Assembly (NCBI RefSeq): GCF_000194155.1
Contig: NZ_GL877883.1
Span: forward strand, 355,486 to 419,485
Source of the DNA: Saccharopolyspora spinosa NRRL 18395
GTDB taxonomy: Bacteria > Actinomycetota > Actinomycetes > Mycobacteriales > Pseudonocardiaceae
DNA: 64,000 nt
Reading direction: 5' to 3'
The translations under genes and the position numbers were made by a program. This document shows positions 33,472-34,079 of the stretch, piece by piece (position 1 is the stretch's first letter; every line of letters begins with the position of its first letter). The notes beneath the pieces are model-generated. The model had not been told where the DNA came from. It saw nothing but the letters and a program-made list of their open reading frames with translations, and searched no databases.

Positions 33472-33548
33472 TCATGGCTCCAAGATCCACGCCGGCCCCG
33501 CCGCAATCCAGGGGAATAACTCGAACTGGTGATCGAATTGATTGGAGT

Positions 33549-33568
33549 CCACTCGTTGGAATGAGTGG
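33549..33568 (+). promoter_or_regulatory. Inverted repeat upstream of the chorismate mutase leader
   Basis: CCACTC (33549-33554) and GAGTGG (33563-33568) separated by 8 nt. It lies ~30 bp before a -10-like TATGGC (33597-33602), so it may be an operator. No family can be assigned. Confidence 0.35.
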
Positions 33569-33613
33569 CCCACGTCACAGCAAACGGGATGCCAGCTATG
33601 GCAGACTGAGCGC

Positions 33614-33676
33614 GTGCAAACGCAGACTTACGAGTTTTTCTACGGGACCGGGAGTCCGGTGCCCGTAGCTGCGTGA
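33614..33676 (+). CDS. Putative leader peptide of the chorismate mutase gene (20 aa)
   Basis: GTG at 33614 opens a 20-codon frame ending at TGA 33674-33676. Its codons 6-10 read Tyr-Glu-Phe-Phe-Tyr (33629-33643), so four of five are aromatic end products of the chorismate branch, in a genome where UUU is rare. A weak ribosome-binding site (GAG at 33608-33610) precedes it, and a -10-like TATGGC ends 12 nt upstream. The codon cluster runs straight into hairpin 33640-33668. This is the arrangement of attenuator leaders such as pheA in enteric bacteria. Function is inferred; nothing but sequence supports it. Confidence 0.6.
   Translation: MQTQTYEFFYGTGSPVPVAA
33640..33668 (+). promoter_or_regulatory. 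Leader hairpin 1 (pause or anti-antiterminator candidate)
   Basis: CTACGGGACCGG (33640-33651) pairs with CCGGTGCCCGTAG (33656-33668), 12 pairs with a single bulged G and a 4-nt loop. Its 5' arm begins inside the second Phe codon, so a ribosome stalled on the Phe/Tyr codons would prevent it. The 3' end CGTAG is complementary to CTACG at 33690-33694, next to hairpin 2. Confidence 0.6.
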
Positions 33677-33694
33677 GCTCAAAATCCCACTACG

Positions 33695-33723
33695 ACGCCC
33701 CGGGGTCCTCGGACTCGGGGCGT
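33695..33723 (+). terminator. Leader hairpin 2 (attenuator terminator candidate)
   Basis: ACGCCCCG (33695-33702) pairs with CGGGGCGT (33716-33723), and inner GTCC/GGAC can extend it. It lies between the leader peptide stop and the chorismate mutase ATG. No U tract follows, which is common for actinobacterial terminators. Confidence 0.5.
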
Positions 33724-33773
33724 TCGCGCGTTCCGGGGCTGGGGCAGGGGCCGAAGCCGGAGGACAACGCCCG

Positions 33774-34079
33774 ATGAACGCCACTGTGGACGGTGACCAG
33801 CAGCAGTCCGAGTCCGCCTCGGCCAAGCAGGCCGCCGCGGAGGCCATCAGCAACTTCCGCGAGGAGATCGATCACCTGGACGCCGAGATCCTGCGCCTGG
33901 TCAAGCGCCGCGCCGAGGTTTCCCGACAGGTCGGCCAGGCCCGGATGGCGGCTGGTGGACCCCGCATCGTCTACAACCGCGAGATGGACGTGCTCGCGCG
34001 CTACCGGGAGCTCGGGCCGGAAGGCCGCGAACTCGCGATGATCCTGCTGCGCCTGGGCCGCGGCCGTCTCGGCCACTGA
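33774..34079 (+). CDS. AroQ-class chorismate mutase
   Basis: 101 aa from ATG 33774, with GGAGGA upstream. An all-helical AroQ delta domain: ISNFREEIDHLDAEILRLVK, RRAEVSRQVGQARMAAGGPR and VYNREMDVLARYRELG. Arg, Lys and Glu residues of these helices form the active site. It converts chorismate to prephenate, the first step to Phe and Tyr. Mycobacterial homologue Rv0948c is weak alone and is activated by DAHP synthase through its C-terminus; the C-terminal LLRLGRGRLGH here is similar. Regulation is probably by the leader described at 33614-33723. Confidence 0.9.
   Translation: MNATVDGDQQQSESASAKQAAAEAISNFREEIDHLDAEILRLVKRRAEVSRQVGQARMAAGGPRIVYNREMDVLARYRELGPEGRELAMILLRLGRGRLGH

Follow-up and report, generated by a model that had tools for sequence, protein, structure and literature searches.

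A conserved candidate Phe/Tyr attenuator upstream of the chorismate mutase gene in Saccharopolyspora spinosa and other actinomycetes

Comparative evidence supports the view that the chorismate mutase gene of Saccharopolyspora spinosa NRRL 18395 is very probably controlled by a ribosome-dependent attenuator, although we are less confident about the share that transcriptional control has in this genus than about the attenuator as such. The element lies at positions 33597–33773 of the window, the 64,000 nt stretch of DNA that we analysed, in the gap between a VTT-domain (DedA-like) gene and the gene for a 101-aa chorismate mutase, both on the + strand (Table 1). Its anatomy, its conservation, the covariation of pairings 1:2, 2:3 and 3:4, and the match between leader codons and target gene were obtained by computation.

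The product of the downstream gene scored over the cut-offs of profiles NF005894 (124.8 bits, cut-off 73), TIGR01808 (103.7, cut-off 52.15) and PF01817 (46.7 bits, cut-off 27). We take it to be an AroQ-delta enzyme; NF005894 and TIGR01808 name it just chorismate mutase. Within the leader ORF, Tyr (33629–33631) and Glu (33632–33634) precede two Phe codons (TTT, 33635–33637, and TTC, 33638–33640) and a second Tyr (33641–33643). The frame has an alternative, longer start at TTG 33542, and GTG 33614 was favoured because of the position of the promoter-like hexamer. The sequence, the ORF list and a minimum free energy (MFE) fold agreed with the coordinates that the original prediction, made from the sequence, had given for the leader ORF, its aromatic codons and two hairpins. 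Hairpin 1 indeed has 12 bp, between 33640–33651 and 33656–33668 with one bulge, and hairpin 2, G+C-rich and terminator-like, spans 33695–33723 as proposed, the MFE fold adding one G-U pair (33694–33724). Both occur in the MFE structure of 33614–33773 (−76.8 kcal/mol, z −2.06; 5 of 200 shuffles were equally stable). A simple consensus scan of 33480–33800, of a type that requires a −35 box, found neither a −35/−10 promoter nor a U-rich terminator.

Table 1. Map of the locus, in positions of the window.
Feature	Position	Strand	Basis or remark
VTT-domain (DedA-like) gene	ends 33471	+	profile match and ORF list
Promoter-like box TATGGCAGACT	33597–33607	+	contains −10-like hexamer CAGACT (33602–33607), 6 nt ahead of the leader start codon
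Leader ORF MQTQTYEFFYGTGSPVPVAA, 20 codons, GTG 33614, stop TGA 33674–33676	33614–33676	+	sequence, ORF list, conservation
Likely sensor triad TTT TTC TAC (Phe-Phe-Tyr)	33635–33643	+	triad pattern in 105 of 113 distinct leaders
Segment 1, 5' arm of hairpin 1	33640–33651	+	MFE fold, pair counts
Segment 2, 3' arm of hairpin 1 and 5' arm of the antiterminator	33656–33668	+	folds, pair counts
Segment 3, 3' arm of the antiterminator (33690–33694, 33697–33698, 33700–33703) and 5' arm of the terminator (from 33695)	33688–33708	+	folds, pair counts
Segment 4, 3' arm of the terminator hairpin; then TTCGCGCG, a poor U-tract	33711–33723	+	fold, covariation
Segment 5, post-terminator motif, can pair with segment 4 (hairpin 33707–33744, −23.1 kcal/mol)	33724–33744	+	swap tests
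Shine-Dalgarno GGAGG of chorismate mutase	33759–33763	+	read from sequence
Chorismate mutase, 101 aa	33774–34079	+	profile matches over cut-off

We examined the leader in two sets of loci that overlap in some genomes: 61 genomes, the source genome included, all of which contained a chorismate mutase orthologue, and 80 named loci, the best 80 of 488 confirmed matches and nearly all from one family. Loss of the ORF or of its aromatic codons among relatives had been named in the original prediction as what would speak against it. On the contrary, at least three Phe or Tyr within six leader residues were present upstream of the orthologue in 58 of the 61 genomes, the exceptions having two (L050 and L061) or one (L039), and all 80 named loci (best 80 of 488) contained an ORF of 10–35 codons with at least three Phe or Tyr in five residues, behind a hexamer with A at its second and T at its sixth position (A2/T6). 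This combination of ORF and hexamer occurred in only 2 of 640 control windows taken from both strands at these loci and in none of 80 antisense windows; the control matches increased to 30 of 640 when the hexamer was no longer required. The 141 loci yielded 113 distinct leaders, starting with GTG (91) or ATG (22), and the triad pattern was found in 105 of them, mostly as FFYG (91) or FYYG (8). Trp occurred in three of the 113, never inside the triad, and the residues ahead of the triad varied widely. The leader thus has what is expected of a candidate attenuator, a short predicted ORF with codons for the end products of the pathway.

The A2/T6 hexamer was located 5–7 nt ahead of the leader start in 59 of the 61 genomes (all except L040 and L041) and in all of the best 80 of 488 loci, and TGGCANACT itself was found at most 25 nt before the leader start in 39 of the 61. 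The same spacing separates −10 boxes from transcript starts in Streptomyces lividans, according to the accessible portion of PMC8079986, from which we infer that the mRNA begins at the leader start codon. The leader mRNA is therefore probably leaderless, starting at 33614.

We compared the position of the aromatic codons with that of hairpin 1, using the general footprint size of the ribosome. A ribosome that holds the codon for Phe8, Phe9 or Tyr10 in its A-site would have its front at about 33647–33653, covering most or all of segment 1, and one at the stop codon would cover segment 2. The proposal that stalling blocks hairpin 1 thus fits the Phe-Phe-Tyr triad; it fails for the first Tyr codon (33629), where a ribosome would leave hairpin 1 uncovered, indicating that the triad is the likely sensor. 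The first triad codon was TTT in 98 of the 105 matching leaders, a codon that is otherwise rare: five genes in the window contain 0 TTT versus 44 TTC, and the 80 named mutase genes 1 versus 24. TTT and TAT were likewise the late sensor codons in the six leaders of family f33 and the seven of family f31 that were examined. We read this near-exclusive use of TTT as suggesting selection for slow wobble decoding or, alternatively, for an unpaired U-run. Such codon use lends itself to a natural test of how attenuator sensitivity depends on the codon chosen, at a sensor site open to direct testing.

The original prediction had placed the alternative pairing at CTACG (33690–33694) and had seen its shortness as the weak point. 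The location stands, whereas the helix continues beyond it through 33697–33698 and 33700–33703. Folding the RNA only as far as the start of segment 4, with segment 1 masked, gave as the best structure an interrupted helix of 13 bp (−16.6 kcal/mol), pairing 33656–33659 with 33700–33703, 33661–33662 with 33697–33698, 33664–33668 with 33690–33694 and 33670–33671 with 33688–33689. Helices 2:3 of 7–13 bp were obtained, under the same masking and truncation, in all 32 genus representatives (a count without shuffled control), so that shortness no longer weakens the case.

Covariation was evaluated in alignment A1, comprising 47 of the 61 genomes after leaving out near duplicates (L006, L007, L009, L012, L017 and L019) and divergent leaders (L039, L046, L047, L049, L051, L058, L059 and L061); the figures consequently describe typical forms, and the permutation statistics leave part of the relatedness in. 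A second alignment, A2, and the RNA model R1 contained 41 sequences each. As the original prediction had suggested should be checked across relatives, hairpin 1, the antiterminator and the terminator all had more double changes that preserve pairing than their shuffled and slid versions. For the 11 antiterminator pairs, 84.3% of cells were paired, versus 24.2–43.3% in slid and 80.9% in shuffled versions (0 of 500), and the score was 0.116 versus 0.013–0.052 for slid versions. Six of these pairs showed double changes, in 19 cells versus 6.6 in shuffles (0 of 500); further pair types gave no clear excess over shuffles (69 of 500). In the alignment, the arms alternate between genera as CGTAG/CTACG, CGTGG/CCACG and CGTCG/CGACG, and segment 3 lies outside the leader coding region, so that coding constraint cannot account for the 2:3 covariation. 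In hairpin 1 and the terminator taken together, 83.0% of cells pair, versus at most 60.1% in slid and 79.1% in shuffled versions, and 35 cells had changed on both sides versus 12.8 in shuffles; the number of pairs with a double change showed no clear excess over shuffles (58 of 500). Three of the 12 hairpin 1 pairs drawn from this species (34-47, 35-46 and 37-44), near the top of the hairpin, were not paired in many of the sequences, from about one half up to most of them.

An alignment-free swap test gave concordant results. In 32 representatives of the 47 genomes, segments paired better with their own partners than with swapped ones for 1:2 (z −7.9), 2:3 (z −5.7) and 3:4 (z −9.0), with 0 of 5000 permutations in each case, compared with z from −2.1 (1:4, 98 of 5000) to 1.7 for ten non-adjacent segment pairs. 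In a smaller set of named loci, 12 of 79 after filtering at 80% similarity, pair 2:4, likewise non-adjacent, had z −1.9 (71 of 3000). Pairings 1:2 and 3:4 are thus predicted to be mutually exclusive with 2:3, with the codons placed for masking of segment 1. When the whole leader was folded with segment 1 masked, terminator pairs outnumbered antiterminator pairs in 29 of the 32 representatives, indicating that the switch must be kinetic, as in classical attenuation.

We infer the following course of events in vivo for transcription start, ribosome stalling and termination. Transcription would begin at or beside the leader GTG, and a ribosome would load onto the leaderless mRNA. A shortage of charged tRNA-Phe or tRNA-Tyr would make this ribosome pause with its A-site on TTT-TTC-TAC and mask segment 1; segment 2, left free, would pair with the emerging segment 3 and so deprive the terminator stem of its base, letting RNA polymerase continue into the gene. 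With ample Phe and Tyr, the ribosome would get to the stop codon and mask segment 2, or hairpin 1:2 would form, in either case allowing terminator 3:4 to form and end the transcript. Segments 4 and 5 may pair with each other in RNA from polymerases that have read through.

The same refolding under ribosome control might instead act mainly on translation, setting access to the Shine-Dalgarno sequence through 4:5 or through 5:6, where 6 denotes the nucleotides ahead of that sequence, with little termination of transcription. This would agree with the U-tract, which is poor in this genus, merely TT(C/T), although 3:4 is a strong stem with covariation. It would also agree with the pairing of segments 4 and 5, which was better than with swapped partners in the 32 representatives (z −3.4, 4 of 5000) and in the partly overlapping set of 12 named loci (z −2.8, 16 of 3000), and with the 5:6 pairings that can be drawn. 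Nevertheless, the 5:6 helix, which gave z −3.3 (3 of 3000) when the segments overlapped, faded to z −1.9 (173 of 5000) and z −1.05 (450 of 3000) with non-overlapping segments and is thus unsupported. Additionally, TTT follows the 3:4 stem in 17 of the 32 representatives and is absent from 15, the former resembling intrinsic terminators; this count replaces that of an automatic terminator finder (10 of 55), which often chose hairpin 4:5 over 3:4. We consider a mainly translational mechanism unlikely. Hairpin 4:5 holds the U-tract in its loop, and segment 5 could keep segment 4 paired in read-through RNA.

The high conservation of the leader amino acids (FFYG.R.P.PV) could alternatively reflect a peptide that acts itself, either arresting the ribosome from within the exit tunnel or serving as a functional product. 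We regard this as very improbable, considering that the C-terminal half is frame-shifted in six distinct FFYG leaders (L018, L023/L128, L024, L037, L130 and L137), with tails such as GPGLRRP, GTGLRLP and YWIRCP after the triad, and that hairpin 1 is retained there, as seen in the folds of L018, L023, L024 and L037 and the R1 matches of L130 and L137. The survival of hairpin 1 after the frame change indicates that the conserved peptide tail is probably a shadow of the RNA hairpin, whose 3' arm it overlaps and some of whose pairs covary; the variation ahead of the triad also argues against a functional peptide. Finally, the leader ORF might merely boost translation by reinitiation, the hairpin serving to terminate the upstream DedA-family gene, which is indeed on the same strand and ends shortly before the element. 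This reading is the least plausible, in view of the promoter-like hexamer that separates both genes in 59 of 61 genomes, the covariation of mutually exclusive pairings and the leader codons matching the pathway of the target gene. Attenuation governed by the ribosome on the leader remains our preferred reading.

Among described systems, the nearest published case is aroR-aroF of Corynebacterium glutamicum (Neshat et al. 2014, as cited in PMC7356990 and PMC11802643), which we liken by its description in the accessible text of these papers. It is likewise actinobacterial and ribosome-mediated, has a leader peptide with Phe-Tyr-Phe and concerns an aromatic-pathway gene. Its target is the DAHP synthase gene aroF instead of chorismate mutase. 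Phe limitation is reported to enhance aroF transcription, and Tyr availability is said in the available part of PMC11802643 to have no effect, a point against our reading. Enteric pheA, with its leader peptide PheL (mentioned also in PMC11802643), shares a Phe-coding leader, alternative hairpins and a chorismate mutase target, there chorismate mutase-prephenate dehydratase, whereas the mutase gene is separate here. The element further differs from pheA in its phylum, in having Tyr as well as Phe codons, in its probably leaderless leader mRNA and in having no Rfam match: none of the 4227 models of Rfam release 15 reached its gathering score anywhere in the window, and within 33500–33800, up to E 5, there was raiA-hairpin alone (E 3, minus strand, 14.7 bits versus a cut-off of 43.7).

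Leaders of the same general type are described in other actinobacteria. In the accessible portion of PMC8079986, leaderless leaders of S. lividans include leuL, ilvL and trpL, in a list of eight without a Phe/Tyr example; as proposed for our element, hairpins come after a short ORF that is leaderless and contains codons for the amino acid that the pathway makes. Mycobacterial poly-Cys leaderless short ORFs (Canestrari 2020, as cited in the available text of PMC13236596) are comparable, and so are the trp, ilvB and leuS candidates of Seliverstov et al. 2005 (PMC1262725). The passages available from that comparative survey report none for phenylalanine or tyrosine operons in Actinobacteria, and also that a Streptomyces ilvB look-alike attenuator was unresponsive to codon mutations, which counts against our reading. 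For C. diphtheriae, trp, ilvB and leu leaders alone are named in the accessible part of PMC5784534; the main text of PMC13236596, on Mycobacterium tuberculosis, does not contain phenylalanine, tyrosine or chorismate, and PMC7247131, as far as its text is available, concerns ribosomal-protein leaders. Among the matches listed, a full-text search, covering mostly literature outside subscription and partial texts, gave no description of a leader of this kind ahead of chorismate mutase in any actinobacterium. The conserved Phe/Tyr attenuator would join a known attenuator type, of which its rare-codon sensor and fifth segment may make a variant. Located before most sampled orthologues in its order and many in other families of the class, it would be a main candidate for regulating the Phe/Tyr branch point in organisms exploited to make antibiotics and amino acids; the available text of the one comparative survey found (PMC1262725) reported no RNA control of Phe/Tyr synthesis in Actinobacteria.

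Model R1 matched all 80 named loci (best 80 of 488) at the leader with E 1.2e-12 or better, some of these genomes being also in the model; 108 weak minus-strand matches in these loci were ignored. We then ran R1 on 246 genomes of the class, alongside a chorismate mutase search of equally many genomes. There were 129 genomes with a match at E 0.1 or better, and we used the 48 matches that reached E 7.4e-5 or better, together with some of the weaker matches. Thirty-two of the 48 were situated 21–241 nt upstream of a chorismate mutase gene (three of them, in G000, G043 and G050, being in the model), 13 were upstream of a DAHP synthase gene, and three were spurious. The latter (L103, L107 and L110), as well as the weaker L109 and L111, had no aromatic leader, and matches confined to the terminator part of the model (positions 76–111), as in family f34, were also considered spurious.

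The 13 DAHP-side matches, 12 from f31 and one from f41, precede proteins starting like MVIVM.P.AT or MVVVMSP. All four proteins tested, three from the 13 and one behind a weaker match, were DAHP synthases by profile (NF006421 and TIGR01361, over cut-off), and the remainder of the 13 were assigned from their N-termini. The f31 leaders (L092–L102, L104 and L105) read NFWRFYGYR or S/W-F-W-Y-G and contained Trp plus Phe and Tyr in 13 of 13 cases, which suits DAHP synthase because the enzyme feeds all three amino acids; those from f41 (L106 and L108) had Phe/Tyr codons and no Trp. Leader codons thus follow the target, with Phe/Tyr before chorismate mutase and Phe/Tyr/Trp before the f31 DAHP synthase. 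A class-wide domino of five segments, in which stalling would select 2:3 plus 4:5 (read-through) over 1:2 plus 3:4 (terminated), perhaps reaching the Shine-Dalgarno through 5:6, with wobble-decoded rare TTT (and TAT) as sensor and the module re-tuned by Trp before DAHP synthase elsewhere, is a tentative and rather doubtful extension.

The chorismate mutase search gave 76 matches over cut-off in 72 genomes, 44 of which had no R1 neighbour. Forty of these 44, besides L039 described above, were inspected with a loose search for two aromatic residues in five, run without control windows. By this uncontrolled search, aromatic leaders were found in eight of eight f33 loci, mostly with FLFTYG or FVFTYG, in four of four evaluable f28 loci (one more was too short) and in the single f26 locus, and 17 of 19 f32 loci had only a cluster of two or three aromatic residues, mostly FYG, with none in the other two. 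One second copy from f33 had just a two-residue match and no hexamer. In f8, a family of the same order, the loose search found an aromatic leader in none of six loci, making, with L039, seven chorismate mutases without a clear Phe/Tyr leader. Judging from these sequences, the leader is present in most lineages sampled and appears to be lost in some f8 genera.

Two of these f8 genera differ in what they contain. In g40 (L220, L226 and L227), there is no leader ORF, and a box like TGGCA(A/G)(A/G)AT directly precedes the likely mutase start codon, which would fit loss of the leader and a mutase that has turned leaderless. In g35 (L039 and L214), the promoter-like box is retained with few aromatic leader codons (MVCPFVKQPLRLC..., MVRAPARHLYRMSPEYRDRGLCT), and these leaders are possibly retuned or decaying.

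We also searched upstream of type II DAHP synthase genes for a promoter followed by an aromatic leader. The 22 regions, which came from 21 genomes of the order, contained none; L199 and L204 were uninformative, because contig ends cut these loci and a fixed offset misses the gene start. Two genomes contained a second chorismate mutase match beside a type II DAHP synthase match, a weak one at G000:C2:110625-110940, where the synthase match is partial, and a similar pair at G007:C110:36524-37975. These second mutase copies are perhaps secondary-metabolism copies or remnants.
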